NCBI GenBank assembly: GCA_018266055.1
Contig: JAFDYT010000008.1
Coordinates: 450,978 to 514,977, forward strand
Direction: 5' to 3'
DNA: 64,000 nucleotides
Source of the DNA: Bacteroidota bacterium
Lineage (GTDB): Bacteria > Bacteroidota > Bacteroidia > Cytophagales > Cyclobacteriaceae
Made by a program: the position numbers and the translations under genes. The notes beneath the pieces are model-generated. The model was given only the letters and a program-made list of their open reading frames with translations. It did no database searches and was not told where the DNA came from. Position 1 is the first letter of the stretch, and every line of letters begins with the position of its first letter. Of this stretch, positions 12,592 to 38,755 are shown piece after piece.

Positions 12592-13467
12592 ATGTTGATC
12601 ATCAAGATACACTATGGGCTGGGCAACCAGATGTTTCAATACGCGCTTGGTCGGCGTTTGTCGATCGAAAAGAAAACAGAGTTCAAACTTGATGTTTCCT
12701 TTTTTTCTAAACAAAGGCCGGAGGAATCCCAACGTGAGTATAGCCTGAGTGGATTTTTCATTCAAGAACAAATCGCCTCCCGGAAAGAGATTTTAGAATT
12801 TGAATCAAGAACTTTACTTAGCCGCTTTAAGAATTTTTTCGAGAGATTATTTTTACCCTATTACCTGCGATCCATTGTTTTTGAAAAAGGTCCAGTCTAT
12901 GACGCCAAGGTGCTGAGAACACGCAACCACTGTTATTTGAACGGTTACTGGCAGCAGGAGAAATACTTTAAACCGATTGAAAAGTTACTTCGTCAGGATT
13001 TTACTTTTCGTGGTGAGACGGACGAAATTAACGACGGGGTACTGTCCACTATTAAATCCAAGGAAACGCCTGTAGCTATCCACATTCGCCGTGGTGATTA
13101 CCTTAGCGACTCGATGATTTTGTCAGTGTTACACCAATGTACCATGGATTATTATTTACGCGCGACAAATTATATTGCATCTTGTACCAGGAACCCCTTC
13201 TTCTTCATATTCTCAGACGATTACGAATGGGTAAAAGAAAATTTCAAAATCAATCACCCTAGCCAATTCATTACGAATTACAATTCGGAAAAACCATTAG
13301 AAGATTTAAGACTCATGTCAGCATGCTCGCATTTTGTGATTGCCAATAGTAGCTTTAGTTGGTGGGCAGCTTGGTTAGGTCAAGCGAAAGATAAGATAGT
13401 AGTGGCTCCGGAAAAATGGTACAAAAATGGACTTAATATTGCGTGCGAGGAATGGGTAAGAATGTAA
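12592..13467 (+). CDS. Alpha-1,2-fucosyltransferase-like, family GT11
   Basis: 291 residues. It starts with the GT11 block IKIHYGLGNQMFQYALGRRL, then the GDP-binding HIRRGDYL motif (from His164), the FSDDYEWVKENF block and the C-terminal FVIANSSFSWWAAWLG. These match alpha-1,2-fucosyltransferases that use GDP-L-fucose. Gmd and Fcl, which make GDP-fucose, are not in the window, so the donor must come from elsewhere, or the enzyme uses another GDP-sugar. Confidence 0.9.
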   Translation: MLIIKIHYGLGNQMFQYALGRRLSIEKKTEFKLDVSFFSKQRPEESQREYSLSGFFIQEQIASRKEILEFESRTLLSRFKNFFERLFLPYYLRSIVFEKGPVYDAKVLRTRNHCYLNGYWQQEKYFKPIEKLLRQDFTFRGETDEINDGVLSTIKSKETPVAIHIRRGDYLSDSMILSVLHQCTMDYYLRATNYIASCTRNPFFFIFSDDYEWVKENFKINHPSQFITNYNSEKPLEDLRLMSACSHFVIANSSFSWWAAWLGQAKDKIVVAPEKWYKNGLNIACEEWVRM

Positions 13468-23400: not shown

Positions 23401-25125
23401 ATGATCATTCTCGGTCTCAACGCCTATCACGCAGATTCATCAGCGGCAATTTTTAAAGATGGTGCCCTTATCGCAGCTACGGAAGAAGAGCGATTTCGTC
23501 GTATAAAACATTGGGCTGGATTTCCCTCTGAAGCGATCAAGTTTTGTCTGAAAGAAGCTGGTGTTACCTTAAAAGAGGTAGACTACATTTGTATTGGTCG
23601 CGACCCAAAAGCCAAAGTTTGGAAAAAGGTTCTCTTTGTTTTAAAAAACATCGGAAGAAAAAATACGCTGCTTTCAGATAGAATCAAGAATTCTGGTAAA
23701 GTAGCCTCAATTGAAACGGAATTGTCGGCGCTTAGTGGCCTCAGTGAAAAAGAATTAAAGCCAAAAATAGTTAATGTTGAACATCACCGGAGTCACCTTG
23801 CTTCCGCTTTTTTTGCTAGTCCGTTTCAGGAGTCTGCTATCTTAAGTATTGATGGTTCTGGTGACTTTACGACCACGATGATTGCCGTAGGAAAGGGAAA
23901 TCAGATTGAAGTGCTTGATTCTGTTGATTTTCCGGTTTCCGCTGGACTGTTTTATACGGCATTCACTCAATATTTAGGTTTTCCTCACTATGGTGATGAA
24001 TATAAAGTGATGGGCCTTGCCCCCTATGGTGAACCAAAATACCTTGATGAGGTAAGGAAAATTCTGATCTTAAAACCGGATGGATTGTTTGACTGGGAAA
24101 GTGAATACTTCGCACCAACCACAGAGATAAAGCTTGATTACTCAACCCATGTCCCGGTGATCTCAACTTTATATGGGCAAAAGATGATTGATGTGTTTGG
24201 CCCTTCCCGTCAGCCCGGGGATGAACTTACGCAGTACCACAAAGATCTTGCTGCCAGTGTGCAACGAGTTTGTGAAGAACTGATTTTGCACATTCTAAAT
24301 CATTTGCAGAAAAGAACTGGTCTAAAAAATATTTGTATCGCTGGTGGAGTGGCGCAAAATTCCGTTGCCAATGGAAAAATAGTTGAAAAGACAAATTTTG
24401 AGAATCTTTACCTTCCCTCTGCCGGACACGACGCAGGAATAAGTATGGGAAGCGCGCTTTACGCTTACAACCATATCTTTAAAAGCTCAAGGGGAAGTGC
24501 AGTGTATTCGGCCTATACAGGAAGCCGATTTTCAAATGAAGAGATTGAGGACGTATTGAAGAAAAATAATGTGAAGTATCAGCGCTTGAGCGATGAAGTA
24601 CTCTTTGAAAAAATTGTGGATAAACTGATTGAACCAGGCGTGGTCGGTTGGTTTAGCGGACGCGCAGAGTTTGGACCAAGAGCACTAGGGGCAAGATCAA
24701 TAATAGCTGACCCAAGAAATCCTAAAGCAAAGGACTTGTTGAACTCAAAGATAAAGCGGCGAGAAAGCTTTAGGCCGTTTGCGCCATCTATTTTAAAAGA
24801 GTATACGGCCGAATTCTTCGAGAAAGTGGAAGATGTTCCATTCATGGAAAAGGTTTTTCCCATACGGAAAGAAAAAAGAGAATTAATTCCAGCCGTCACC
24901 CACGTGGATGGTACGGGGCGTTTGCAGACTGTAGCCCGTGAAGTTTCACCACGGTATTACGCTTTAATTGATCAGTTCCGGCAAAAGACAGGTGTTCCTA
25001 TTTTGTTGAATACGTCCTTCAATGAAAACGAACCAATTGTCAATACCCCTCAGGAAGCGCTAGATTGTTTTTTGCGCACCCAAATGGATATGCTGGTATT
25101 AGAAAACTGTGTGGTTGAAAGATGA
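23401..25125 (+). CDS. Carbamoyltransferase, NodU/CmcH family
   Basis: 574 residues. The N-terminal Kae1-like domain begins ILGLNAYHADSSAAIFKDG, contains NVEHHRSHLASAFF (metal-binding His residues) and FYTAFTQYLGFPHYGDEYKV split across the core. The C-terminal domain has WFSGRAEFGPRALGARSI and the carbamoyl-AMP binding region near ILLNTSFNENEPIV. It transfers a carbamoyl group from carbamoyl phosphate, through carbamoyl-AMP, to a hydroxyl, here presumably of a sugar in the polysaccharide. It ends 19 bases before the next glycosyltransferase start. Confidence 0.93.
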   Translation: MIILGLNAYHADSSAAIFKDGALIAATEEERFRRIKHWAGFPSEAIKFCLKEAGVTLKEVDYICIGRDPKAKVWKKVLFVLKNIGRKNTLLSDRIKNSGKVASIETELSALSGLSEKELKPKIVNVEHHRSHLASAFFASPFQESAILSIDGSGDFTTTMIAVGKGNQIEVLDSVDFPVSAGLFYTAFTQYLGFPHYGDEYKVMGLAPYGEPKYLDEVRKILILKPDGLFDWESEYFAPTTEIKLDYSTHVPVISTLYGQKMIDVFGPSRQPGDELTQYHKDLAASVQRVCEELILHILNHLQKRTGLKNICIAGGVAQNSVANGKIVEKTNFENLYLPSAGHDAGISMGSALYAYNHIFKSSRGSAVYSAYTGSRFSNEEIEDVLKKNNVKYQRLSDEVLFEKIVDKLIEPGVVGWFSGRAEFGPRALGARSIIADPRNPKAKDLLNSKIKRRESFRPFAPSILKEYTAEFFEKVEDVPFMEKVFPIRKEKRELIPAVTHVDGTGRLQTVAREVSPRYYALIDQFRQKTGVPILLNTSFNENEPIVNTPQEALDCFLRTQMDMLVLENCVVER

Positions 25126-25897: not shown

Positions 25898-26829
25898 AGA
25901 GGGTTTTACTAACAGGAGTAACTGGTTTTGTGGGCACCAATTTAGTGTCGTCCCTCAGCAGATCGGCACAGTACCGTATCTTTGGGCACTCTCGTAACCG
26001 AGAAAAGGCAAAACTGGTTTTTAAAGATTTTCAGATTACATTGGTCGATCAGGTTTCCTCAGACTTGTTGAATGAACTGAAGATTGACACTGTAATTCAT
26101 TTGGCTGGGATTGCACACGATCTCTCAGGCAAATACAAACCTCAGGATTATTATGAAGTAAATCAAAAACAAACAGGTCAATTGTTTGATGAGTTTGTAA
26201 AATCAAATTCCACTCAGTTTATTTTTTTGAGCTCGATAAAAGCTGCTGTGGATCATTCTTCTCAGCCAGCCGATGAGTCTATTCAACCATTACCAGCCTC
26301 TGATTATGGTAAGTCGAAATTGTTGGCTGAACGGCACATCCAGAAACAGGCTTTACCTAGTGGAAAGAAGTTTTATATCCTACGTCCTTGTATGATACAC
26401 GGCCCAGGAAACAAAGGTAACCTGAATTTACTTTACCGGTTTGTAAAAATGGGGATTCCGTATCCACTGGCAGCATTTCACAATCAGAGGTCTTTTCTTA
26501 GTATTGATAATTTCGCTTATGTGGTGGAGAAAATTATGAGCAGTAATATTGACTCGGGAGTTTACCATGTAGCAGATAACGGGTTTTTATCGACCCTTGA
26601 ATTGTACGAGCTTATCGCGCAAGCCTCTTCAAAAAAACCAAGAGTGTGGACCCTTCCTAAGAACATGGTTCGATGGATGGCAAGAGCCAGTGGTAATCGA
26701 AAACGATTGTCAAAACTCACTGAAGATCTGATGGTGTCAAATCAAAAACTTTTGACCAATTTGAATTGTAAACTCCCGTTTGAAATGAAAGAGGGTTTGA
26801 TCAAAACAATAAAGTCTTTTCGTGGATAA
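25894..26829 (+). CDS. NAD-dependent sugar epimerase/dehydratase (WbpV/QuiNAc 4-reductase-like)
   Basis: 311 residues, extended short-chain dehydrogenase. The NAD motif is GVTGFVGTNL at the N-terminus and the catalytic pair is in YGKSK (YxxxK). IHLAGIAHDL and ILRPCMIHGPGNKGNL are typical of the subgroup that includes WbpV/WreQ-like 4-ketosugar reductases. Because a WecA/WbpL-like transferase overlaps it and a WbpM-type 4,6-dehydratase is at the 3' end of the locus, reduction of a 4-keto-6-deoxy UDP-HexNAc is a reasonable guess; other epimerase roles remain possible. Confidence 0.82.
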   Translation: MKRVLLTGVTGFVGTNLVSSLSRSAQYRIFGHSRNREKAKLVFKDFQITLVDQVSSDLLNELKIDTVIHLAGIAHDLSGKYKPQDYYEVNQKQTGQLFDEFVKSNSTQFIFLSSIKAAVDHSSQPADESIQPLPASDYGKSKLLAERHIQKQALPSGKKFYILRPCMIHGPGNKGNLNLLYRFVKMGIPYPLAAFHNQRSFLSIDNFAYVVEKIMSSNIDSGVYHVADNGFLSTLELYELIAQASSKKPRVWTLPKNMVRWMARASGNRKRLSKLTEDLMVSNQKLLTNLNCKLPFEMKEGLIKTIKSFRG

Positions 26830-27784
26830 TTATTTCCTGATAGCTCTGGGACCGGCCTTGCTTGCGATTGAATTAGGCTACATTCGTTTCGCTAAGTCTG
26901 CGGGTGTGCTTGATAACCCGAATAACAGAAGCCTTCACGAAAATCCGACCATTCGGGGTGGAGGTATTATTTTTCCTTTGGCCATTGTTTTACTTTATTT
27001 CTTTAGCTCTGAAGTGAGCTTGCCGTTACTCTCAGCTATTGTACTCATAGCCATTGTTGGTATTGTCGACGATATGAAGGACTTGAGTCGGCTTCTACGA
27101 TTTGGAGCGCAGGCATTGGTCGTCTTTCTTATATTCTATGACGTGGGGGTCTTCGCTCATTCGTGGTGGGTAATTGTGTTATTATTGGTTATCGCCGTAG
27201 GCACTGTAAATGCCTACAACTTTATGGACGGAATCAACGGCATTACCAGTGGATATAGCTTGGTTTTATTGTTGAGTCTCTTGTACATCAATTCTTATGT
27301 GGTGGCTTTTGTTGGCGATGGTCTGATCCTAACAATGATAATAGCCCTGCTGGTTTTTAGTGTGTTTAACTTCCGCACAAAAGCACTTTGTTTTGCCGGC
27401 GACGTGGGAAGCTTGTCTATCGGTGTTGCTGTAATCTACTTGATCGTAAAGCTCACTATGATTTCGCACAATTACTTCAGCATCCTTCTTCTTTCTGTAT
27501 ACGGCGTTGATAGTGTTCTCACCATTATCCATCGCCTATGGTTGAAGCAGAATATTTTTAAAGCGCACCGGCTGCATCTTTATCAAGTCGTAATCGCGGC
27601 GACCAAGATGCCACACTTGCGGATGGTTTTTTTATACATGTTGGCTCAGGCGATTATTGATGCTTTGGTCATTGGTTTATTCCATAGTGATATTTGGGTT
27701 CACCTGTGGCTGACAACTTGCGTATTCGGAGTATTGAGCCTTATTTATGTCTTTGTTAAACGGAAGTATTTTAATTCCATTTAA
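26822..27784 (+). CDS. Undecaprenyl-phosphate HexNAc-1-phosphate transferase, MraY/WecA/WbpL family
   Basis: 320 residues with ten or eleven membrane helices. The GTG start overlaps the epimerase stop by eight bases and no better start exists. Motifs: NRSLHENPTIRGGGI, IGIVDDMKDLSRL region for Mg2+-binding aspartates, NAYNFMDGINGI and FAGDVGSLSIG. It transfers a UDP-HexNAc phospho-sugar to undecaprenyl phosphate, starting a repeat unit. The overlap with the epimerase suggests the two act in sequence, as WbpV and WbpL do in other O-antigen loci. Confidence 0.92.
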   Translation: MDNYFLIALGPALLAIELGYIRFAKSAGVLDNPNNRSLHENPTIRGGGIIFPLAIVLLYFFSSEVSLPLLSAIVLIAIVGIVDDMKDLSRLLRFGAQALVVFLIFYDVGVFAHSWWVIVLLLVIAVGTVNAYNFMDGINGITSGYSLVLLLSLLYINSYVVAFVGDGLILTMIIALLVFSVFNFRTKALCFAGDVGSLSIGVAVIYLIVKLTMISHNYFSILLLSVYGVDSVLTIIHRLWLKQNIFKAHRLHLYQVVIAATKMPHLRMVFLYMLAQAIIDALVIGLFHSDIWVHLWLTTCVFGVLSLIYVFVKRKYFNSI

Positions 27785-28365
27785 TGTTTTACTCTAATTA
27801 CGGCAAACGCATTCTGGATATTGCTCTAATTCTTATAGGCTTCCTGATTTTGTGTTGGCTGTTTATTTTCATTCTAATTGTATACGTCGCTTTATTTGAA
27901 TTCCCAATTTTCTTCAAGCAATACCGAACAGGAAAAAACGGTGAGCCCTTTGTGTTTTGGAAATTTAGAACGCTAAAGGTTGCTGAATCGGATGACAGTG
28001 TGGACCGGTCTTTTGGTTGGGGAAAATTTCTCCGTTTTACCAGTTTGGATGAACTACCTCAGTTGTTTAATGTGCTGAAAGGGGAGATGTCTTTGGTAGG
28101 CCCGCGACCACTACCCGTTGACTACGAAAAATTTTATTCAGCTAGTCAGCGCCAAAGGCATCTGGTTAGGCCTGGGATTACGGGGTGGGCTCAGGTAAAT
28201 GGAAAAAACAGTATTCCATGGGAAAGAAAATTTGAGCTTGATAATTATTACGTGAATAATCTTTCCTTGAAACTTGATCTTCTTATTCTGATCAAAACGG
28301 TCGTGTTGTTATTTTCTTTCAATAAGGATGTATCTTTGAAAGAGAAGAAATTTACCGGAAGTTGA
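27784..28365 (+). CDS. Polyprenyl-phosphate sugar-1-phosphate transferase, PglC/WcaJ catalytic type
   Basis: 193 residues, the short form with one N-terminal re-entrant membrane helix and the catalytic domain, like PglC. Motifs: FFKQYRTGKNGEPFVFWKFR, then TSLDELPQLFNVLKGEMSLV, GPRPLPVDYE and HLVRPGITGWAQVNGKN. It would transfer a phospho-sugar to undecaprenyl phosphate. It is a second initiating enzyme directly after the WecA-like one (TAATG overlap), and is followed by a PglD-like acetyltransferase, pointing to a bacillosamine-type sugar. Confidence 0.92.
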   Translation: MFYSNYGKRILDIALILIGFLILCWLFIFILIVYVALFEFPIFFKQYRTGKNGEPFVFWKFRTLKVAESDDSVDRSFGWGKFLRFTSLDELPQLFNVLKGEMSLVGPRPLPVDYEKFYSASQRQRHLVRPGITGWAQVNGKNSIPWERKFELDNYYVNNLSLKLDLLILIKTVVLLFSFNKDVSLKEKKFTGS

Positions 28366-29021
28366 AAAATAAAATTGCTATTTATGGGGCAGGTGGATTA
28401 GGTCGCGAAATTGCCGTGATGATCCATCAAATCAATGCCTTAAATTACCTAGGCGATCTAATTGGCTTTTTCGATGATGGCGTGACCAAAGGAACTCGTG
28501 TCGATGATTTACCCGTCATCGGGGGGATGAATGAACTGAATACTTATGGTGATGATCTGAGTCTTTGCGTAGCGATTGCGGATCCTCTACTGAGAAGTAG
28601 TTTGGTGAAAAAAATTTCGAACCCTAAAATCAGTTTCCCTGTGATTGCTCATCCTTCCGCTATTCTTGGCGATACAAAGAGAAATAAAATAGAACGGGGC
28701 GCTATCATTACTGCAGGGGTAATCATGACTACAGGAATTACCGTCGGCGAGTTTAGTATTTTAAACTTATCATGCACCATTGGCCACGATGTAGTGGTGG
28801 GGCGCTGCAGCACACTGATGCCGTCTTGTAGTATTTCGGGAAATGTAGCCATAGGAAATGAAACGGTAATTGGTACTGGTTCCCGGATAATTCAAGGTGT
28901 ATCAGTAGGAGAGAGATGCATGGTGGGCGCGGGTGCAGTGGTCACCAAAAGCGTTGGCGCAAACTTTAAGTTGCTTGGCGTACCTGCTAGAAAACGAATA
29001 AACCATGTGGAAGGAGTTTAG
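28362..29021 (+). CDS. Sugar O/N-acetyltransferase, PglD/NeuD family
   Basis: 219 residues. An N-terminal UDP-sugar binding domain starts with KIAIYGAGGLGREIAVMI, and a left-handed beta-helix of hexapeptide repeats follows (GEFSILNLSCTIGHDVVVG region), ending GVPARKRI. In PglD the acetyl group goes to the 4-amino of UDP-4-amino-4,6-dideoxy-GlcNAc. The start is a TTG inside the stop of the previous gene (TTGA); no nearby ATG preserves the first beta strand. Its neighbours fit the PglD assignment. Confidence 0.88.
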   Translation: MKNKIAIYGAGGLGREIAVMIHQINALNYLGDLIGFFDDGVTKGTRVDDLPVIGGMNELNTYGDDLSLCVAIADPLLRSSLVKKISNPKISFPVIAHPSAILGDTKRNKIERGAIITAGVIMTTGITVGEFSILNLSCTIGHDVVVGRCSTLMPSCSISGNVAIGNETVIGTGSRIIQGVSVGERCMVGAGAVVTKSVGANFKLLGVPARKRINHVEGV

Positions 29022-29541
29022 GCCCGCAATTCGTTTCGTCGCCCTCTTTGTCGGAATTTACCTTGTGGGCAACATACTCTATGGCGTATACATCTCTTCC
29101 AATGATAATAGACCAGACATTGTCACAAAAATAGTGGCGCATCAGACTGTGTCAGTCTTAAATAGTTGCGGTTTTGAGGTGCGTGATGAAGTGAACTCAA
29201 CGGGACCAACAGTATTTCTTAAGACAGGCAACCGAACGATTCTGAATGTTTTTGAAGGATGCAATGGAATCAATGTAATCATCGTATTCGTCTCTTTTCT
29301 GATTGCCTTTCGTGGGCCGCCCAAAATGTACCTATGGTTTATTCCAGCAGGAGTTTTGATTGTACATGCGTCTAATATTGTAAGAATTGGGATGCTTTAC
29401 TGGGTTGCAGTCGGTCATCAACGATATTTCTATTATGTTCACAAGTATGTATTTACAGGAGTAATTTACCTTGTAGTATTTGCACTGTGGTTATTTTGGA
29501 TAAGAAAGACAAATGGCCAAAGAAGCGCATCCTCGAATTAA
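29005..29541 (+). CDS. xrtF: Exosortase family protein, XrtF type
   Basis: 178 residues, about five membrane helices. The exosortase catalytic triad is visible: Cys86 in FEGCNGIN, Arg127 in HASNIVRIGM and His146 in YYVHKYVF. The short length and the small companion gene directly downstream match the Bacteroidota XrtF group. Exosortases are inner-membrane cysteine transpeptidase-like enzymes that cut C-terminal sorting signals and probably attach cargo to a glycan or lipid. The gene overlaps the PglD-like gene by 17 bases and its partner by 29, so it is embedded in the polysaccharide operon. Confidence 0.88.
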   Translation: MWKEFRPAIRFVALFVGIYLVGNILYGVYISSNDNRPDIVTKIVAHQTVSVLNSCGFEVRDEVNSTGPTVFLKTGNRTILNVFEGCNGINVIIVFVSFLIAFRGPPKMYLWFIPAGVLIVHASNIVRIGMLYWVAVGHQRYFYYVHKYVFTGVIYLVVFALWLFWIRKTNGQRSASSN

Positions 29542-29947
29542 ATGGTGGCTGGTGGGGCTATGTCTCATTGGGCTTTCTGTTGTCTATGTATTTCAAAGGA
29601 CAGATTATTATTTGATTTTTTTTGGCTTCTATGAAAAGCAGGTAAGTGCTTTCATTTTTAATAAAACATTTAGGCTTGTTATAAATGACCTGCTTTGTTT
29701 GCTACTCATTTATGCCTTGTTTCACGATAAAAAATATTTAAAGCTTGCGTCTGTGATTTTACTTATTGAGCTTTTTGTCATTATGCCTATTTATTTTTGG
29801 ATTAAATTGAAAGTGGAAGGCAGTTCTGAAATTTCGTCACCGCTACTTTCTCAGATACACCGCTTAATTGTGAATCCTTTGCTGATGGGAATATTGATTA
29901 TCGGCCTCTACTATCAAAAATACTGGGCTAATAGAAATGAAATCTAA
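29513..29947 (+). CDS. Exosortase F system-associated membrane protein
   Basis: 144 residues with four predicted membrane helices and a short basic cytoplasmic N-terminus. Size, topology and position immediately after XrtF match the family named exosortase F system-associated protein. Its biochemical role is unknown; a chaperone-like or complex partner role for the exosortase is inference. It overlaps the exosortase by 29 bases and the aminotransferase by 11. Confidence 0.8.
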   Translation: MAKEAHPRIKWWLVGLCLIGLSVVYVFQRTDYYLIFFGFYEKQVSAFIFNKTFRLVINDLLCLLLIYALFHDKKYLKLASVILLIELFVIMPIYFWIKLKVEGSSEISSPLLSQIHRLIVNPLLMGILIIGLYYQKYWANRNEI

Positions 29948-31037
29948 ATTCGATATTCCTCTTTCGTACAATGCTATTCCGGGGCAACAGCTTGCCTCGA
30001 AAATTCAGCAGTATGCTGACCGTCACCATGACGACTTCATCAGTGATTTTGAAAAAACGATATGTGCAATAACCGGAGCGAAACACGCTATTGCCCTGAG
30101 TTCAGGTACCGCGGCAATTCATTTAGGGTTAAAGGCGCTGCAAGTTCAGCAGCACGACATTGTGATGGCGTCCTCTTTCACCTACGTGGCTTCGATTAAC
30201 CCAATTGTATATCTGGGAGCGGAGCCATTTTTCATAGACAGCTCGCCTACCGACTGGAATATGGATCCCAATCTGTTGGAGGAAGGTGTTAAAGTATGCA
30301 TATCCCGCAATAAAAAACCCAAAGCTATCCTGGTGGTTCACACCTATGGCATGCCGGCAGACATGAACTCCATCATGGATATTTCCAGGAGATATAACAT
30401 TCCAGTCCTGGAAGATGCTGCGGAGGCCTTGGGCTCAAGGTTGGGCGATGTTTCGGTTGGAACTTTCGGAAAGGTTGGGGTATTTTCGTTTAACAACAAT
30501 AAACTCATCACCACCTATGGTGGGGGAGCCCTTGTGACTGATGACCAATCAGTCGCAGCCAATATTAACCTTTGGGCAAGCCAGTCGCGCGACAACTTAC
30601 CCTTTTACGAGCATAGGGAAATAGGATACAACTACAAAATGGGTCCAATAAATGCAGCCGTTGGGCTTTCCCAAATTGAGGCGTTAGACTCAAAAATTAA
30701 ACACAGAAGGGAAATCTTTACCTTGTATAAAGATCGATTTGGGCATGAAATGTTATGGCAGAGCGAAGGAAAGAACGTTTTTACCAACAGGTGGATCACG
30801 GCTGGTCGTTTTGGCACGAATATGGACTGTAGAGCGCTTCAAAGAAAGTTGGCAGCTGCGGGAATAGAAACTCGCCTGCTCTGGAAGCCTATGCATCTTC
30901 AACCGGTTTTTCAGGGGTTTCAAGCTCAGGAAAATGGCACCGGCGAAGGCCTTTTTTTGAATGGATTATCTTTTCCTTCCGGGGATGATATGACACCTGA
31001 GAAAATTGACAGGATATATTCTCTGCTCAGGGGTTAA
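29937..31037 (+). CDS. DegT/DnrJ/EryC1/StrS PLP-dependent sugar aminotransferase (PglE-like)
   Basis: 366 residues. The PLP Lys is K189 in SFNNNKLITTYGGGALV, with ALSSGTAAIHLGLKAL for phosphate binding, ASSFTYVASINPIVYLGA, and VLEDAAEALGS supplying the ring-binding Asp. Members convert 4-keto sugar nucleotides to 4-amino sugars. Next to PglD- and PglC-like genes and upstream of a PglF-like dehydratase, a PglE role (UDP-4-amino-4,6-dideoxy-GlcNAc synthesis) is likely. It starts 11 bases inside the exosortase partner gene. Confidence 0.91.
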   Translation: MKSKFDIPLSYNAIPGQQLASKIQQYADRHHDDFISDFEKTICAITGAKHAIALSSGTAAIHLGLKALQVQQHDIVMASSFTYVASINPIVYLGAEPFFIDSSPTDWNMDPNLLEEGVKVCISRNKKPKAILVVHTYGMPADMNSIMDISRRYNIPVLEDAAEALGSRLGDVSVGTFGKVGVFSFNNNKLITTYGGGALVTDDQSVAANINLWASQSRDNLPFYEHREIGYNYKMGPINAAVGLSQIEALDSKIKHRREIFTLYKDRFGHEMLWQSEGKNVFTNRWITAGRFGTNMDCRALQRKLAAAGIETRLLWKPMHLQPVFQGFQAQENGTGEGLFLNGLSFPSGDDMTPEKIDRIYSLLRG

Positions 31038-31155
31038 ACTCTGGTATAAAGAGGTGAATAATAGAGCATTCGGTCGGATGGCTAAACGATCAGTCAATCC
31101 GGTTACGAGTTAAGCTAAACAGGTATAAACTCTCTTAAAAACCATATATTGTTGT

Positions 31156-31163
31156 TATTTTTG
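31156..31163 (+). promoter_or_regulatory. -7 box (TATTTTTG) before the giant T9SS protein gene
   Basis: Exact TAnnTTTG match. No clear -33 TTTG lies at 19-21 nt upstream. If used, transcription would begin around 31170, leaving almost no leader for ATG 31174 but about 20 nt for ATG 31192, which supports the latter as the start codon. Confidence 0.4.
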
Positions 31164-31191
31164 TGGATTAACTATGAGGAAGACTAACGCT

Positions 31192-34100
31192 ATGAAGGAT
31201 TTGAAGATTTATTTTATCAGCCTAATTGCGCTGATGGTGCAAACCACCGTGGTTGGTCAAACCGTTACCTCTACTAAAGATGGCAATTGGGATGATCCCA
31301 CTGTTTGGAGCTGGAGCGCAAGCCCCCAATCGTATCCAACAAGTAGCAACTCTACCAGGATAAACGTCAATCATAAGATTACTGTTAGTTCTACAGCCTT
31401 TCCGGTGGGTGGTGACTTGATAATAGACCAGACTACCATCGCCAACTCAGCTGCGGCAGATTTAATTATTAATTCAGGAGCAGGAGTCATTCTAAGTAAT
31501 GGAACTGGCACCGATCTAACGTTTACAGGCACATCGGGAAAGATCGACGTCTCCGGGCAATTCGCTGCCAATACGGGTACCACTTTCTCAGCAGGATACA
31601 CCGCAGCTCAATTTAACTTCTTAGCAGGATCAACCTACGAACACAAAGCAGTTTCTCCCAATACAGCTTTGCCCGTAGCAAGCTATAACGCAACGAGTAC
31701 AGTATTGATTGATGGTTACACGGGTGGAGGTACTTATACAGCTGCTTGGAATGTGGCTTTGGGAAATGTAACCTACAATTGCCCGAGCCAAGCTGCAGGT
31801 ATCACCAATTTCGCAGGGTTTCTTAGAAACATTCAAGGCGATCTTACTATTTTAAATACGGGTACAACGGGAAGAATATATTTCAACTCTACTGGTACTT
31901 CAACTGCGGCTTCCTCTTCTGCTATAAATATTGCTGGGAATTTTTCTGTATCAGGTGTTTCCAGGGTTTTTATGACAACAACCGGAAATGTTGAAGTGTA
32001 TGTGACAAAAGATTTCTTCTTCAATACCAGCACCGCTAATAATTCGGGCAGTGTGGCTGGAAGTGGCACCGGATTACTTCAGGTTACTGGCAATACTTCA
32101 ATGGCAGGATCTTCCTCATGGAATTTTTCAAGTGGGGCCAATGGCAATGGTACGATAAAGATGTTGGGCAATCTTACCTGTGGTATTACTGCTACTGAAA
32201 GTGGTACGGGCTCGTCGCAAGGAAACTTTACCTTCTCAGGCGTTTCAGGTCAACAAAGTTTTGATCCAACCGGAGCAACGTTTACCAATAATGTTAATGT
32301 AACAGTCAACAATGCATCGGGAGTAAATTTGGCTGCCGATCTTGTTCTTTCTGGTGGTCTTAACCTGACAAATGGGGCGTTATCATTACCTGGTATTAGC
32401 CTTACTTTAAATGGCGCTGTTAGCCAAACGTCTGGCTCCATTGCATCTCCCGCTAATTCGACGCTTATCATTGGTGGATCAGGAACTCTTCCAGCCAACT
32501 TAACGATAGGGGCAGGATCTACCTTCGATACTTTTGAAATGAATCGGTCAGCTACCACACTGACCACTAATTCAACATTTACAGTTACTAACCTTCACCT
32601 TTATGCCGGAACCTTGGCCAACACGGCTAATGCCATTACGATGAACAGTGGTCTGGTAGACTTGCATGCCCTTTCTGCTGCTAACACAGGCGTTCTTTCC
32701 AATGTGTTAGCCGGAACATATGATCTTCAGTATACCAATAATGTTACTTTGAGCACAGGCGCTGAGCTACCTACATCCACCACAGCATTAAATAATTTAA
32801 CAAAGCTTGGAACGAGCACACTTACCGTGACCAAGAACATAACTATCAACGGAGATCTTACCGTTTCGGCGGGCACCATTACAGATGGAGGTACTGCCCG
32901 AACTATCAATCTTGATGGAAATTACGTAAGTGGTGGCACGGCATCAACTTGGAGTGCTACGGGTACAACGTTTAATTTTTCCGGATTATCGGTGAGTACT
33001 TTTTCTGGTGCCATTTCTCCGGCCTTCAATGTGTTGAATTTTGCGAATGATGTAAATATCTCTTCAGGATTTAGCGTCACTGGAAATCTTACTGTTTCGT
33101 CAGGGAAATCAGTTACTGCAACTGCAGGAACTTGTACTTTCAGTGGAACAACGACGCTTACCAATAACGGGACACTTAATCTATTTGGAGTAACTATCCC
33201 TGCAGGAGGTACACTAAACTCTTCAGGCTCATTTAGTGTGGCAAGTACGTTCAATATCAATAGTACTGGAATTCTCAACTCGACGGGGACGATCACTTTT
33301 AATGGAACAACCAGCCTTACAGGAACCAGTGCTAACAAGGCCTTTAAGAATATCACCGTGACCAGTGGAAGCACTTTTGGAGGCGCTGTAAATTGGATAA
33401 TTAGCGGTACGCTTGACAATAGTGGTACTGTAAATTTCACCGCAGGGTCTTTGACTGTCAATGGAGCTGTTACTTTTCAAAACACCGGAGCTTTTGGGTT
33501 CAGCGGAATCTCAATTTTGGCAAGTCAATCACTTACCGCCAATTCTGATTTTGCGATGGCCGGTAGCTTGTCTGCCACTGGAAGTTTCCTTTCTTCAAAG
33601 AAAGTGACTATTACTGGTGCTAACACCATGACTGGAGCTGCTTCAAAAACATTTACAGATCTTACCATAAATGGAGGGGCTAGCTTTACACCAAATTCGA
33701 TATACACGATTACAGGTAATATGGTAGTGAATGGTACCCTGAATGCTGGAAACAGCACCACCACATTCGGTGGCACTACTGCCTTGTCGGGCTCTGGTGC
33801 GGCCACATTCAATAACCTTATAATTAGTGCCGGAAATTCGTTAAATGCTTCAATGCCTCTTACTGTTTCGGGAAGTACGTTCACCAATAACAATGTATTC
33901 TCAAACACTGCCCTCACAACATTTTCTCGTGCAGGAACTACCACCATTTCAGGTGCAGGAACTTCGTCCTTTGGGGCACTGACTATCAATACCGGAACTA
34001 CTTTAACGCCAAATCAGGCTTACTCCGTCGGCGGAAACTTGATTGTGAATGGAACGCTAAACGCAGGTGCTGCTACTTTTAACGGCACCACGACTATTAG

Positions 34101-36633
34101 CGGAACCCCTACAGCAATCAACTTCAGTAATGTGACTATTAGTGGCTCTTTGACCTCTTACTCAGGAAACATTACGGTGACTGGAAATTTCACGAATAAC
34201 GGCACCTTCGCAGGCAATGGTGGTACGGTGATTTTCTCAGCGCTTGCTGCCGGAACACATACTATCTCAGGATCAAGTCCCTCAACGTTCAGCAACATTA
34301 ACGTATTGGGAGGAGCCACGGCCACCGATGTGACGCTGGCAAGTAGCCATAATTTGGCTGGAGTTTTAACATTGTCTGCCAACGGAGTGCTTAGCTCAGG
34401 TGGTTTTCTTACACTCCTTTCAACCGGCGATAACCCAACGGTGGATGCGAGTGTAGCGGCGATTCCAGCAGGAGCAAGTGTTACCGGAGATGTGATTGTA
34501 CAACGCTATATGACAATCGAAGGGGCGAATAATACTCGCATTTATAGATATATTTCTTCGCCTGTCCAAAACGCTACTATTGCTGACCTTCAGAATGAAA
34601 TACCCGTCACGGGACCTTTTACCGGGTCAAGCGTTTGTTCCGGCTGTACTACCACCGCATCAATGTTCTGGTACGACGAAACAGTTGCAGGTGCGCAATC
34701 CAATGGGTACACAGCGTATCCCACGACTTCAAATGCTCAGACTTTTGTTGTTGGAAGGGGGTATGCAACCTTTGTAAGGGGTAATCTGCTTAGCGGTTCT
34801 GCGAAGTTCGATCTTCATGGCCCAATTAATTCAGGATTGATCAATTACGGAGTAACCTATACCTCAACATCGGGTGGTGCAGCAAACGACGGCTGGAATC
34901 TAGTGGGCAATCCTTATCCATCTACTATTGACTGGAATTCAGCTGCCGGTTGGACCAAGACCAATGTGGGAGGAACCATATACATGACCGACAATGGGTC
35001 AAATCCTAGTAAGGTAGCGACCTGGAATGGCTCTGTAAGTCAAAATGGAGGCTCACGGTACATATCTACTGGCCAGGCATTCTTTATCCAGACAACGGCA
35101 GCTGCTCCAGTACTGACGTCTACTGAGAGCATAAAAGCCGCCGCGGGTACGCAAACCACATTTATCCGTGAAGCTGCCCCTTCGAATGTACTTAGGATTA
35201 CGCTCAGCCAAGGATTAGTTCAGGATGAGGCCGTGATTCATTTCCGAGATAGTGCAACTGTCAATTTTGATTTTAAATATGACGCTGTGAAACTTAAAAA
35301 TCTTAAAAATGACAATAGCAGCACACCGTACATGAACCTATCTACGATTTCAGCTGATAATAATAAATTAGCAATCAACTCAATGCCATTATCCGTATCA
35401 GAGTGTTCAACAGTTGTGTCTTTAGATGTATCTGATGTTCCGGTAGGGACCTACAATCTTAATTTCTCAAGCCAAAATACTTTTAACGCGTTAGCCTCTT
35501 TTCAATTGAAAGATAATTTTACATCAACAGTGGTAGATTTGGGGAAGCAGTCAGATTATACTTTTCAAGTGACTTCAGATGCAGCAAGTTACGGATCCGG
35601 TCGCTTCTCAATCACGGTTTCGTACCCTCAGGCACCAAGTCAGTTGGCATTAAAAACTGCTGATGTTTGTAAAGGCACCAATGCTAGTCTTACGGTATCC
35701 AATTCCATTCAAGGGTTGAATTACTTTGTAACTCTCGGAGGAAAATCGATGAGCACGGTGACGGCAGGCACGGGTGCGGATCTTAATTTTTCAATTGCAA
35801 AAGATAGTCTGAAAGTAGGATTAGATACCTTGGTTGTGGTTGCAAAATCTCAATTCTGTTCGTCGTCATACTCCCAAAAAATTGCTCTTGCAGTTCAAGA
35901 TATTTATGCGATAAGCAAAGTATCTTCAACTTCTGCTTGTCAGTCTGGAACAGTAATGTTATCTGCTAGTGGAGCCCCCGCAAACGGCTACTACAAATGG
36001 TATTTGAATTTGTCGGATACGGTTGCAATTGCCGGCGAGACTTCTGCTTCATATACGACCTCACAATTATCAAAGCCACGCAGTTACTATGTTTCAACCG
36101 TCAATGCACTTGGGTGCGAGGGAACCAGATATGAAGTAAAAGCCAACATTATTAACTACGAGGATGCAACGGTGACCTTGTTGAACGACCTCAAGACTCT
36201 GCAATCAAACTACACTACAGGTAACCAATGGAATTTTGAAGGGCAACCAATTTCAGGGGCCATTACTGACGTGTACAAACCGACAAAATCAGGGAACTAC
36301 TCCGTCACTGTCTCCACCTTAGGTTGCTCCACGACTTCATCACCGGTTAGTTATTTGATCACTGGTGTAGAGAGTGAATTCAATGTTGAAGGAAATCACA
36401 TTTACCCGAACCCCACTTCGGGAGCGTTTACCATTCAAGCGAAGTTGTCAACCGAATCAACTGCTCAAATAATCGATGGTCAGGGAAAACAAATTGGAGT
36501 GACGCCAATGGTTTATACTGGCGGCGAATATTATAAGGGTAGTTATGATTTGACTTCCCAGCCTTCTGGTATTTATTTGATCAGGATCGCTGATGGTAAT
36601 GGTTGGATAACTCAAAAGGTGATCCGTAAGTAA
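31192..36633 (+). CDS. Very large secreted surface protein with beta-helix-like repeats and T9SS type A sorting domain
   Basis: 1813 residues from ATG 31192 (ATG 31174 would add six). A signal peptide (MKDLKIYFISLIALMVQ...VGQ) is followed by a GNWDDPTVW domain common at the N-terminus of Bacteroidota surface proteins. Then come about 1,000 residues rich in Ser, Thr, Gly and Asn made of irregular repeats such as VNGTLNAG, FNGTTTISG and LTINxG, suggesting a long parallel beta-helix. A GWNLVGNPYPSTIDWNS domain, Ig-like segments with paired Cys and a type A sorting domain (IYPNPTSGAFTIQ to VIRK) complete it. Likely an adhesin or matrix protein. It is followed 10 bases later by a tiny exosortase-signal protein. 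Confidence 0.88.
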   Translation: MKDLKIYFISLIALMVQTTVVGQTVTSTKDGNWDDPTVWSWSASPQSYPTSSNSTRINVNHKITVSSTAFPVGGDLIIDQTTIANSAAADLIINSGAGVILSNGTGTDLTFTGTSGKIDVSGQFAANTGTTFSAGYTAAQFNFLAGSTYEHKAVSPNTALPVASYNATSTVLIDGYTGGGTYTAAWNVALGNVTYNCPSQAAGITNFAGFLRNIQGDLTILNTGTTGRIYFNSTGTSTAASSSAINIAGNFSVSGVSRVFMTTTGNVEVYVTKDFFFNTSTANNSGSVAGSGTGLLQVTGNTSMAGSSSWNFSSGANGNGTIKMLGNLTCGITATESGTGSSQGNFTFSGVSGQQSFDPTGATFTNNVNVTVNNASGVNLAADLVLSGGLNLTNGALSLPGISLTLNGAVSQTSGSIASPANSTLIIGGSGTLPANLTIGAGSTFDTFEMNRSATTLTTNSTFTVTNLHLYAGTLANTANAITMNSGLVDLHALSAANTGVLSNVLAGTYDLQYTNNVTLSTGAELPTSTTALNNLTKLGTSTLTVTKNITINGDLTVSAGTITDGGTARTINLDGNYVSGGTASTWSATGTTFNFSGLSVSTFSGAISPAFNVLNFANDVNISSGFSVTGNLTVSSGKSVTATAGTCTFSGTTTLTNNGTLNLFGVTIPAGGTLNSSGSFSVASTFNINSTGILNSTGTITFNGTTSLTGTSANKAFKNITVTSGSTFGGAVNWIISGTLDNSGTVNFTAGSLTVNGAVTFQNTGAFGFSGISILASQSLTANSDFAMAGSLSATGSFLSSKKVTITGANTMTGAASKTFTDLTINGGASFTPNSIYTITGNMVVNGTLNAGNSTTTFGGTTALSGSGAATFNNLIISAGNSLNASMPLTVSGSTFTNNNVFSNTALTTFSRAGTTTISGAGTSSFGALTINTGTTLTPNQAYSVGGNLIVNGTLNAGAATFNGTTTISGTPTAINFSNVTISGSLTSYSGNITVTGNFTNNGTFAGNGGTVIFSALAAGTHTISGSSPSTFSNINVLGGATATDVTLASSHNLAGVLTLSANGVLSSGGFLTLLSTGDNPTVDASVAAIPAGASVTGDVIVQRYMTIEGANNTRIYRYISSPVQNATIADLQNEIPVTGPFTGSSVCSGCTTTASMFWYDETVAGAQSNGYTAYPTTSNAQTFVVGRGYATFVRGNLLSGSAKFDLHGPINSGLINYGVTYTSTSGGAANDGWNLVGNPYPSTIDWNSAAGWTKTNVGGTIYMTDNGSNPSKVATWNGSVSQNGGSRYISTGQAFFIQTTAAAPVLTSTESIKAAAGTQTTFIREAAPSNVLRITLSQGLVQDEAVIHFRDSATVNFDFKYDAVKLKNLKNDNSSTPYMNLSTISADNNKLAINSMPLSVSECSTVVSLDVSDVPVGTYNLNFSSQNTFNALASFQLKDNFTSTVVDLGKQSDYTFQVTSDAASYGSGRFSITVSYPQAPSQLALKTADVCKGTNASLTVSNSIQGLNYFVTLGGKSMSTVTAGTGADLNFSIAKDSLKVGLDTLVVVAKSQFCSSSYSQKIALAVQDIYAISKVSSTSACQSGTVMLSASGAPANGYYKWYLNLSDTVAIAGETSASYTTSQLSKPRSYYVSTVNALGCEGTRYEVKANIINYEDATVTLLNDLKTLQSNYTTGNQWNFEGQPISGAITDVYKPTKSGNYSVTVSTLGCSTTSSPVSYLITGVESEFNVEGNHIYPNPTSGAFTIQAKLSTESTAQIIDGQGKQIGVTPMVYTGGEYYKGSYDLTSQPSGIYLIRIADGNGWITQKVIRK
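33655..34150 (+). repeat. Internal repeats of the giant surface protein
   Basis: Two adjacent stretches of about 100 residues share the pattern LTIN-G-TPN-Y---GN--VNGTLNAG followed by F-GTT--SG and a short NL-I or NVTI segment; the DNA copies share segments around gtgaatgg and ctgaatgctgg-type words but are diverged. Less regular units of the same style extend both ways from about 32,200 to 34,400. These are protein-level repeats consistent with beta-helix coils. Confidence 0.6.
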
Positions 36634-36643
36634 AATTGAACCT

Positions 36644-36835
36644 ATGAAAATTAGAAGCTTAGTATTTTTTTTATTTTTCATCTTAGTCATTGGAACCATT
36701 GCAGTGAAGGCTCAACCTGGCGACCCTGGTGGTGGTGACCCGGATGTACCGATCACAGGTATTGAATACTTGGTTGGCGCAGGAGCACTTTTGGGGATTA
36801 GGAAATTCATTAAGAAAAATAGCAACAGGGCTTAA
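36644..36835 (+). CDS. Small protein with exosortase-type C-terminal sorting signal (PID-CTERM-like), likely XrtF substrate
   Basis: 63 residues. A Sec signal peptide ends near Ala23 (TIAVKA), leaving about 40 residues: a Gly/Pro/Asp-rich spacer (QPGDPGGGDPDV), then PITG at 36-39, a short hydrophobic helix IEYLVGAGALLGI and a basic end RKFIKKNSNRA. Motif, helix and basic tail are the layout of PEP-CTERM-like signals; PIT/PID variants with such short mature parts are found in Bacteroidota. It sits 10 bases from both neighbours, so it belongs to the operon. Pairing with the exosortase 6.7 kb upstream is inference. Confidence 0.75.
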   Translation: MKIRSLVFFLFFILVIGTIAVKAQPGDPGGGDPDVPITGIEYLVGAGALLGIRKFIKKNSNRA

Positions 36836-36844
36836 TTTTACGAG

Positions 36845-38755
36845 GTGCTTCGAATATTCACAAAGTTTATCCGCAACCTTAGAATATTACCACGTTGGGT
36901 AATCATTTTTATTGATTTAGTTCTTATTTCCTTTTCTGCGTTACTAGGTTACCTTCTGCGGTTTAACTTTTCTTTGCGGGAGCTTGAGTATTATAGTTTT
37001 CAGAACGGCATATTATTATACACGATATGCGGATTGGTTTCTATCCTAATCACAAACAGCTATAAAGGGATTATCCGTTACACCGGAATTCAGGATGGCG
37101 CGAGAATATTTATAATGACCATCTTGAACGTGGCGTTGGTTTGTGCTTCTAACTTAATTTTCTTTTATAACGACCGAGGGAATATAGTTCCTTACTCGGT
37201 TGTAATGATTAGCCTTCTGTCGTCTTTCCTGTTGCTGTTCAATTACAGGTTGCTGGTGAAGTACATTTTCTCCTATTATAGAAACCTGATGATCAACAAA
37301 GCCCGTGTAATTATTTTTGGGGCAGGCCAGACAGGGATCATTACGCGTCATGTGCTTGAATCTACGCCACGGATGAAGGTAGCTGGATTCATTGAAGATG
37401 ATCCTAACAAGGCGGGAAAAATCCTTGACGGTATAACAATCTATAAAGGAGATAAAGAAGAGCTGCCTCGCCTGTTGAATGAACTGGATGTTGATGAACT
37501 TATTTTTACCGCAAAGGATATTTCGTTGGAACGAAAAAATGAAGTAGTCAATGCATGTATAAAAAATCAAATAAAGGTTAGAACAGTCCCGCCAGTCGAA
37601 AAGTGGGTAAAGGGCGAGTTAAGTTTTAACCAGATTAAAGAAATTAACATTGAAGACCTGTTAGGACGCGAAACAATTGTTCTAAACAATTCCAATGTGC
37701 AGTCGTCGTTGCGGGGAAAGAAAATTCTAATTACAGGAGCCGCTGGTTCGATTGGTTCCGAGTTATTCAGACAAGTGATATTAAACAGGCCATCGGTTGT
37801 TGTTCTGGTCGATCAATCCGAGTCAGCTCTTTATGAATTGGAAAGAGAGGCCTATAACGCTGACACCTCCGCGCGTTGTTTTTGTTACCTGGCCGATATC
37901 AATAACAAAGAGAGAATTCGTTTTTTATTTGAAGAGCATAAGCCGGACATAGTCTATCATGCGGCTGCCTATAAGCACGTACCCATGATGGAAAGCAATC
38001 CTTCAGAGGCTATTGTTTGCAATATTTTGGGAACAAAGATATTGGCTGATCTGGCGGTGGAATTTGGTGTGTCTAGATTTGTAATGATTTCTACTGACAA
38101 AGCCGTCAACCCTACGAACGTTATGGGTTGCTCGAAGCGAATCGCTGAGATATATGTTCAGTCGTACAATGACTATTTAGAATCGCGAGGTGTCGGCCAT
38201 ACCGCCTTTATTACCACCAGATTCGGAAACGTTCTTGGCTCAAATGGTTCTGTTATTCCTCTCTTTAAGAAGCAAATTCAGGAAGGCGGACCTATTACGG
38301 TTACACATCCTGAAATAACCCGCTATTTCATGACTATCCCGGAAGCTTGCCAGTTGGTGCTTGAGGCTGGTAGTATGGGCAAAGGAGGGGAGATCTTCAT
38401 TTTTGATATGGGTAAGTCTGTGAAGATTCTTGACCTAGCTGAAAAAATGATATGGCTATCTGGCCTTGAGCCAGGAAAGGATATTGAAATTGTATTTACC
38501 GGACTTCGTGAAGGCGAAAAGCTTTATGAAGAATTATTGAACAATTCGGAAAATACCACGCGGACTCATAACCAGAAAATAATGATCGCTAAGGTGAGTC
38601 ATTATTCCTACGAGGAGGTAAACCGCTACGTCGAGCTATTCAATGATTTGATTAATGATCGCAATGAATTAAAAAGCGTAGCCTTGATGAAAGAACTGGT
38701 TCCTGAATACAAAAGCAACTATTCCCGCTACGAAGTTCTTGATAAAGAGAAGTAG
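36845..38755 (+). CDS. Membrane UDP-HexNAc 4,6-dehydratase, WbpM/PglF/CapD family
   Basis: 636 residues with a GTG start ten bases after the previous gene. Four N-terminal membrane helices (residues 18-135), a CoA-binding-like domain (RVIIFGAGQTGIITRHVLES), then an extended SDR domain: KILITGAAGSIGSELFRQV binds NAD, AAAYKHVPMMESNP is family-specific, and MISTDKAVNPTNVMGCSKR has Met in place of the usual catalytic Tyr, as in WbpM/FlaA1-type dehydratases. It makes a 4-keto-6-deoxy UDP-sugar, the shared precursor for the PglE/D and WbpV-like enzymes upstream. Last + strand gene of the locus. Confidence 0.93.
   Translation: MLRIFTKFIRNLRILPRWVIIFIDLVLISFSALLGYLLRFNFSLRELEYYSFQNGILLYTICGLVSILITNSYKGIIRYTGIQDGARIFIMTILNVALVCASNLIFFYNDRGNIVPYSVVMISLLSSFLLLFNYRLLVKYIFSYYRNLMINKARVIIFGAGQTGIITRHVLESTPRMKVAGFIEDDPNKAGKILDGITIYKGDKEELPRLLNELDVDELIFTAKDISLERKNEVVNACIKNQIKVRTVPPVEKWVKGELSFNQIKEINIEDLLGRETIVLNNSNVQSSLRGKKILITGAAGSIGSELFRQVILNRPSVVVLVDQSESALYELEREAYNADTSARCFCYLADINNKERIRFLFEEHKPDIVYHAAAYKHVPMMESNPSEAIVCNILGTKILADLAVEFGVSRFVMISTDKAVNPTNVMGCSKRIAEIYVQSYNDYLESRGVGHTAFITTRFGNVLGSNGSVIPLFKKQIQEGGPITVTHPEITRYFMTIPEACQLVLEAGSMGKGGEIFIFDMGKSVKILDLAEKMIWLSGLEPGKDIEIVFTGLREGEKLYEELLNNSENTTRTHNQKIMIAKVSHYSYEEVNRYVELFNDLINDRNELKSVALMKELVPEYKSNYSRYEVLDKEK

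Follow-up and report, generated by a model that had tools for sequence, protein, structure and literature searches.

This analysis concerns a small gene and the exosortase gene upstream of it, which lie on one strand at the downstream end of a polysaccharide locus in a 64,000-nucleotide stretch of DNA (the window) from a Bacteroidota bacterium of the Cyclobacteriaceae (GenBank assembly GCA_018266055.1, contig JAFDYT010000008.1). Four open reading frames (ORFs) are central: exosortase XrtF, its partner, a giant cargo protein of the type IX secretion system (T9SS), and a protein of 63 amino acids (aa). Exosortases are membrane enzymes with a presumed role in cleaving and reattaching exported proteins. 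Of the 73 exosortase-positive genomes that belong to the family besides the window's own, 60 had the surroundings of their exosortase fetched; counts out of 49 below refer to the fetched same-family XrtF stretches.

29005..29541, + strand: exosortase XrtF, 178 aa, triad C86/R127/H146 (TIGR04128, 133.7 bits, cut-off 90)
29513..29947, + strand: XrtF-associated membrane protein, 144 aa (TIGR04127, 44.3 bits, cut-off 35; in 46 of 49 stretches)
31174..36633, + strand: giant T9SS cargo protein, 1819 aa (TIGR04183, 40.7 bits, and PF18962, 44.3 bits, at the C-terminus; Ig_7 domain)
36644..36835, + strand: 63-aa putative XrtF substrate (ORF; 33-member alignment A1; all 50 genomes in the XrtF clade set have a homologue)

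An earlier note, made from the letters of this DNA, had described the enzyme as XrtF-like with an intact Cys86/Arg127/His146 triad, and this was confirmed by TIGR04128 and by an alignment of 86 exosortases, in which C86 was present in all rows and R127 and H146 in 85 rows each (one gap each). In a tree of these 86 rows, the 49 window-type sequences, including the window's, formed one clade (support 98/97), with nine flavobacterial XrtF rows as its sister (100/93; both together, 100/99). The window enzyme scored 119 bits on the XrtX model NF046081, below the cut-off of 170. Three XrtX-type enzymes (L086, L088 and L234) also exceeded the TIGR04128 cut-off, at 91.5–95.5 bits; because they pass both the XrtF and the XrtX cut-offs, the TIGR04128 cut-off alone is not exclusive. 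Nine exosortases outside the XrtF clade were scanned, seven of which lay above the XrtX cut-off (L093, L095, L086, L088, L234, L239 and L220) and two below it (L188, 155 bits; L204, 133.8 bits). A search of PDB sequences with the XrtF profile gave no match at E 1. A single exosortase was found in the window's own genome (the sole exo_archaeo match), and the ORF of its TIGR04127 partner overlaps the XrtF ORF.

The 63-residue protein is composed of a signal peptide (residues 1–23, MKIRSLVFFLFFILVIGTIAVKA), a cargo (residues 24–35, QPGDPGGGDPDV) and a VPITG-type sorting signal that includes a short helix and a basic tail (residues 36–63, PITGIEYLVGAGALLGIRKFIKKNSNRA). The anatomy proposed earlier (signal peptide, Gly/Pro spacer, PITG, short helix, basic end) was thus borne out by the sequence; the signal peptide was read from the sequence, and the tripartite C-terminus is conserved across all 33 members of A1. 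This alignment, taken from a set collected near 60 XrtF-like places, includes the window protein and 32 others that are 30–54% identical to it, which argues against a chance ORF. Q24, P28, P36, G39, G47 and G51 are invariant, and the consensus includes AQPGxxPGGDPDVPIxGIExLLxAGGxLGxKK. Between the putative signal-peptidase site and the P of PITG we counted 12 Gly/Pro/Asp-rich residues, in agreement with the earlier estimate of about 12. A search of the genome for other PIT/PID C-termini, which the earlier note had proposed, returned three PID_CTERM-like matches, all of them weak (9.9–11.7 bits) and in open frames of 250–989 aa; this model gives too little signal in the window's genome.

Cargos were parsed with a simple rule, which handled 54 of 55 XrtF-type proteins, 33 of 48 in a second set and 43 of 49 in the phylum set, and which ended a few XrtF-type cargos prematurely, where a P-I or P-V occurs early. 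The XrtF-type cargos had a median length of 13 residues and consisted of 32% Pro, 26% Gly and 13% Asp, with Lys at 0.7%. Ser and Thr were both missing from 34 of the 54 parsed, and 18 of the 54 had no S, T, N, K, Y or C; in the phylum set, Thr or Ser was present in 30 of the 43 parsed. Being short and Pro/Gly/Asp-rich, with no conserved acceptor side chain, the XrtF-type cargo looks like a flexible capped spacer.

The strongest context of the small gene, overlooked in the earlier note, is the giant gene directly 5′ of it, with a stop-to-start distance of 11 nucleotides (nt; coordinate difference). The giant exceeds the TIGR04183 cut-off of 23 bits, and its genome encodes PorU (NF033707, 1294 bits) and has 46 T9SS domain matches in total. 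Altogether, 103 small genes were found in 121 stretches, 100 of them with an upstream ORF, and the last 110 residues of these ORFs matched TIGR04183 at E 0.001 or better in 89 cases and PF18962 in 75. An upstream ORF of at least 500 aa precedes 96 of the 103 small genes; for these the median spacing was 11 nt, with 17 overlapping and 76 within 30 nt. The 89 TIGR04183 matches include 27 of the 35 upstream ORFs in four multi-copy XrtX-type genomes (G007, G133, G161 and G112), which have 35 small genes. In the phylum set, made up of 49 rows (both pieces of a split gene, L218, counted separately) of which 40 had an upstream ORF, one a repeat, 30 of the 39 ORFs scanned gave a T9SS match.

The other 32 members of A1 had first been picked out in the vicinity of XrtF, either for their form or because they lie upstream of PglF, so that pairing within A1 is partly selected. 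The later sets of small genes were found by profile search and were tested with a sorting-domain model from the first set only, built locally from XrtF loci. This held-out test recognised 80 of 105 upstream ORFs (117 small genes), as against 41 of 394 other ORFs of at least 300 aa from the same stretches (p=2.0e-39). Broken down by origin, the model recognised 17 of 18 upstream ORFs in the stretches retrieved for XrtF-type copies that were unlinked or off-contig, 26 of 35 in the multi-copy genomes, 4 of 4 at exosortase loci that are not in the XrtF clade, 5 of 8 at other same-family loci, 25 of 28 at other loci of the phylum and 3 of 12 in Flavobacteriaceae. The idea that the pairing reflects no more than one locus is weakened by five genomes (L126–L130) in which the small gene lies away from XrtF, yet behind an ORF of 1438–1945 aa. 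In each of the four multi-copy genomes, 6 to 10 small proteins could be parsed, and their mature parts are alike (mean identity 0.67–0.84); the upstream proteins, by eye, diverge at their N-termini. This points to a single, interchangeable small product that accompanies different giants. The pairing of giant and small gene across many related bacteria suggests that both surface-sorting systems work together. Among the papers that searches on exosortases and T9SS brought up, none describes this pairing in its title or in the opening of its abstract; the NCBI comments on NF046080 may mention it. In the literature searched, PID-CTERM was not found as a term, nor was the combination of exosortase, small protein and Bacteroidota.

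Several minor observations concern these gene pairs. Most XrtF-linked giants (31174–36633 and the upstream ORFs of L037–L092 and L126–L142) share, by eye, an N-terminal module SGxWxxxxTW followed by repeats, and no Pfam match covers this module in the window's giant. Extra small genes in genomes G136 and G104 (L143, L144 and L165) have no large T9SS-like ORF directly upstream. PID-CTERM proteins with a longer cargo stand directly behind a large ORF in L321 (around 9627) and L204 (7911–8240, reversed-strand coordinates). A different recurring neighbourhood was seen in Flavobacteriaceae (L187, L191 and L202), where a gene resembling that of methylmalonyl-CoA epimerase precedes the small gene by about 400 nt. 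In L218 (5202–5452, reversed-strand coordinates), another small gene of the PID type, following a large ORF, is split into two short ones, reflecting either a broken gene or a sequence error.

We next consider how the small protein is distributed relative to the exosortase. For the same-family searches, the XrtF profile and the A1 alignment were run on the same 196 genomes, with a small-protein cut of about 1e-5; copy counts and absences hold among the at most 31 (same-family) or 15 (phylum) candidates scored per genome. The small protein was present in 70 of 74 exosortase-positive genomes of the family versus 4 of 122 negative ones (p=6.5e-43). Across 395 genomes of the phylum, the figures were 69 of 115 versus 0 of 280 (p=2.0e-46). 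In the 50 genomes of the XrtF clade set, the gene was in single copy in 47. That all 69 phylum genomes with the small protein also have an exosortase, and none of the 280 negatives has it, argues that the small protein needs this exosortase branch (XrtF/XrtX); the converse, that an XrtF always has such a small substrate, has weaker support. From the co-occurrence we strongly infer that the 63-residue protein is an exosortase (XrtF) substrate in the window's family.

Physical linkage, which the earlier note had called direct, holds for the window, where both genes are on the same strand, and recurs in 34 of 49 stretches, always on the XrtF strand. It is not universal, because the small gene is absent from the other 15, several of them ended by contig ends; there it lies elsewhere in the genome. 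The note had named loci that keep exosortase and glycan genes without the small gene as the contrary case: genome-wide the small gene was kept (50 of 50), though these 15 fetched stretches are without it.

The window system resembles several known systems and differs from each. XrtX and PID-CTERM proteins (NF046081, NF046080 and NF046082) likewise combine an exosortase with small signal-peptide proteins, there with a P-I-D-G-G sorting signal, and the sampled small genes are also often behind T9SS proteins. The window enzyme, however, groups with XrtF, and its small protein has a signal of the VP[ILF]xG kind. Membership of PID-CTERM by model was rejected, as the 63-aa protein scored 13.8 bits on NF046080 (cut-off 26) and only one of 33 A1 members reached the PID_CTERM level (E-value set to match the cut-off), whereas 13 of 13 sampled small proteins outside the XrtF type matched NF046080 at 8.5e-6 or better. 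The window type usually has one copy of the small gene, as opposed to the 7–11 examined in each of the four XrtX-type genomes. PEP-CTERM/EpsH systems share with the window a tripartite C-terminal signal, a triad enzyme and an exopolysaccharide locus. Their cargos are numerous, ordinary proteins, as opposed to the window's one cargo of about 12 residues.

A further likeness is to the anchoring of T9SS cargo by PorU, although PorU belongs to another enzyme family and to another membrane than the exosortase. PorU joins cargo C-termini to the amine-bearing sugar of anionic lipopolysaccharide (A-LPS), a C-terminal conjugation, in Bacteroidota, like that proposed here (excerpts of PMC7468200); in the window, by contrast, the gene next to that of the T9SS cargo would encode a further substrate, one of the exosortase type. 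The nearest experimental system is Flavobacterium johnsoniae, whose XrtF and Fjoh_1449 belong to TIGR04128 and TIGR04127 as in the window, flavobacterial XrtF being the sister clade. There, according to excerpts of PMC10936215, deletion of xrtF or its partner causes defects in biofilm formation and sand colonisation, and the same mutant table holds porU, porV, porZ, sprA and a DegT gene. The excerpted text (2024) leaves the exosortase substrates to future research. Flavobacteriaceae differ from the window in that their small relatives are mostly not beside T9SS genes and that 14 of 30 genomes of family f7 have no match.

On balance we favour the view that the 63-residue protein is a dedicated XrtF substrate and a co-expressed accessory of the adjacent giant, a short, capped and envelope-tethered peptide serving that giant. 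Genes for sugars and glycans, some of which might supply an acceptor, lie beside and between those listed above:

26822..27784, + strand: WecA-like glycosyltransferase family 4 (PF00953, 80.9 bits; in 6 of 49 stretches)
27784..28365, + strand: bacterial sugar transferase, phosphoglycosyl transferase type (PF02397, 190.5 bits; in 38 of 49)
28362..29021, + strand: NeuD/PglD-type acetyltransferase, overlapping the XrtF start (TIGR03570, 184.7 bits, cut-off 160.8; in 48 of 49)
29937..31037, + strand: DegT/DnrJ-type sugar aminotransferase (PF01041, 283 bits; in 38 of 49)
36845..38755, + strand: PglF/CapD-type sugar-nucleotide dehydratase, 636 aa, the next gene 3′ of the small gene (Polysacc_synt_2, 399 bits; in 34 of 49)

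The genes at 27784–28365, 28362–29021, 29937–31037 and 36845–38755 form a set conserved around XrtF, which we take to be akin to the bacillosamine-type amino-sugar pathway (PglC/PglD/PglE/PglF). All 34 stretches with a PglF-type gene contain the small gene.

In the mechanism that we propose, Sec would carry the 63-aa protein into the periplasm, where signal peptidase would expose an N-terminal Gln24 expected to cyclize to pyroglutamate; export, signal-peptidase cleavage and capping would in this follow the Q-rule (abstract of PMC10653852). The C-terminal helix would hold the protein in the inner membrane until XrtF, through its Cys/Arg/His triad, presumably cut near VPITG and passed the new C-terminus to an envelope acceptor. 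It is possible that this C-terminus is joined to glycan or lipid, and the most attractive candidate would be an amino-sugar glycan made by the linked NeuD, DegT, PglF and sugar-transferase genes. For conjugation of a C-terminus to an envelope acceptor there are precedents in PorU and rhombosortase, and the exosortase acceptor is termed an unidentified compound (both from excerpts of PMC7468200). The product would be a Pro/Gly/Asp-rich peptide of roughly 12–16 residues, with neither end free and with a tether to the envelope. Because the small gene directly follows the gene of a giant surface protein, we hypothesize that the tethered peptide, made alongside that protein, might act as its handle or surface retention site.

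A number of observations count against this view. It is gene context that points to the acceptor and to the tether role, and PglF is missing from the fetched part of 15 of 49 stretches. Four same-family assemblies (140–570 contigs) have the small gene and no credible XrtF match, although in one of them, G056, the XrtF partner lies near a contig start. Conversely, the exosortase-positive genomes G032, G083, G131 and G147 have no small-protein match at 1e-5; their exosortases score under the XrtF cut-off, and G131 has a weak small-protein match (1.6e-4). At the level of the phylum, 46 of 115 exosortase-positive genomes lack a match, among them 22 of 38 from flavobacterial families; matches were seen in only 16 of 30 exosortase-positive genomes of family f7 and 0 of 8 of family f6, and it is in these two families that XrtF scores highest. 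Upstream ORFs in Flavobacteriaceae were T9SS-like in only 3 of 12 cases (18 small genes), and the background in the held-out test, 41 of 394 other long ORFs, is not zero. Finally, Thr or Ser is usual in XrtX-type cargos (26 of 33 parsed).

This last point bears on the interpretation given in the earlier note, that the tiny cargo of an exosortase substrate is a carrier or primer, with polysaccharide built or attached on its side chains. Substrate status is strongly supported by the co-occurrence. The carrier role agrees with the position of the small gene in a polysaccharide locus beside sugar-nucleotide enzymes and with the frequent Thr or Ser of XrtX-type cargos, for which it is not weakened; for the XrtF type it is, as the cargos have no conserved acceptor, Ser and Thr being absent from most of them, and in multi-copy genomes the related genes stand mostly behind T9SS genes, away from the exosortase. 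We regard it overall as improbable. Somewhat less improbable, though still unlikely, is that the small protein stays uncut as a single-span membrane helper that assists the assembly or secretion of the T9SS protein encoded upstream, with only an indirect association with the exosortase. Such a helper would fit the tight spacing to the giant gene and the likeness of the mature parts that follow diverse giants where a genome has multiple copies, but not the lack of any match among the 280 exosortase-negative phylum genomes, nor a tripartite C-terminus of the kind found in exosortase signals, which in every sampled relative outside the XrtF type was recognised by PID_CTERM.

Two other rivals accept cleavage and differ in the fate of the product. 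The peptide could be a covalent linker between giant and envelope, with the T9SS sortase PorU joining the C-terminus of the giant to it. PorU is present in the genome, and T9SS cargo C-termini in Porphyromonas gingivalis are amide-linked to an amino-acid-bearing sugar (excerpts of PMC7468200); the expected pyroglutamate cap, however, would block the N-terminal amine, and XrtF-type cargos contain little Lys, making a linker of this kind very unlikely in our estimate. Release of the cut product as a secreted signalling peptide seems to us the least probable of all: a short Pro/Gly product, probably capped by pyroglutamate (from sequence and the Q-rule; abstract of PMC10653852), would suit a signal, but it would be odd for the gene of a signal to be paired with that of a giant structural protein and to have several similar copies in an XrtX genome.

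The view of a dedicated, giant-serving XrtF substrate gives the window's family a candidate for what XrtF acts on that is specific and mostly a single gene. The main new result is a putative partnership with T9SS, which makes a link between exosortase and T9SS testable. If that link is true, the common phenotypes of F. johnsoniae exosortase and T9SS mutants would make sense (excerpts of PMC10936215). The exosortase acceptor would also become approachable, because the product is short enough for direct readout by mass spectrometry. A wider generalization, which we put forward tentatively and think doubtful as yet, is that exosortases of the XrtF/XrtX branch serve T9SS, the tiny PIT/PID-CTERM proteins being handles installed on envelope glycan or lipid and each supplied with one T9SS surface protein to be retained or assembled. 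If this were true, two surface-sorting systems so far studied apart would be one pathway in much of Bacteroidota.

The remainder of the window's polysaccharide locus encodes Wza/Wzc-like proteins (one Poly_export, one AAA_31), many glycosyltransferases and an ABC exporter with a Wzt C-terminal domain on its ATPase. A carbamoyltransferase gene (23401–25125) and a glycosyltransferase family 11 gene (12592–13467) in this locus suggest a carbamoylated, possibly fucosylated glycan.

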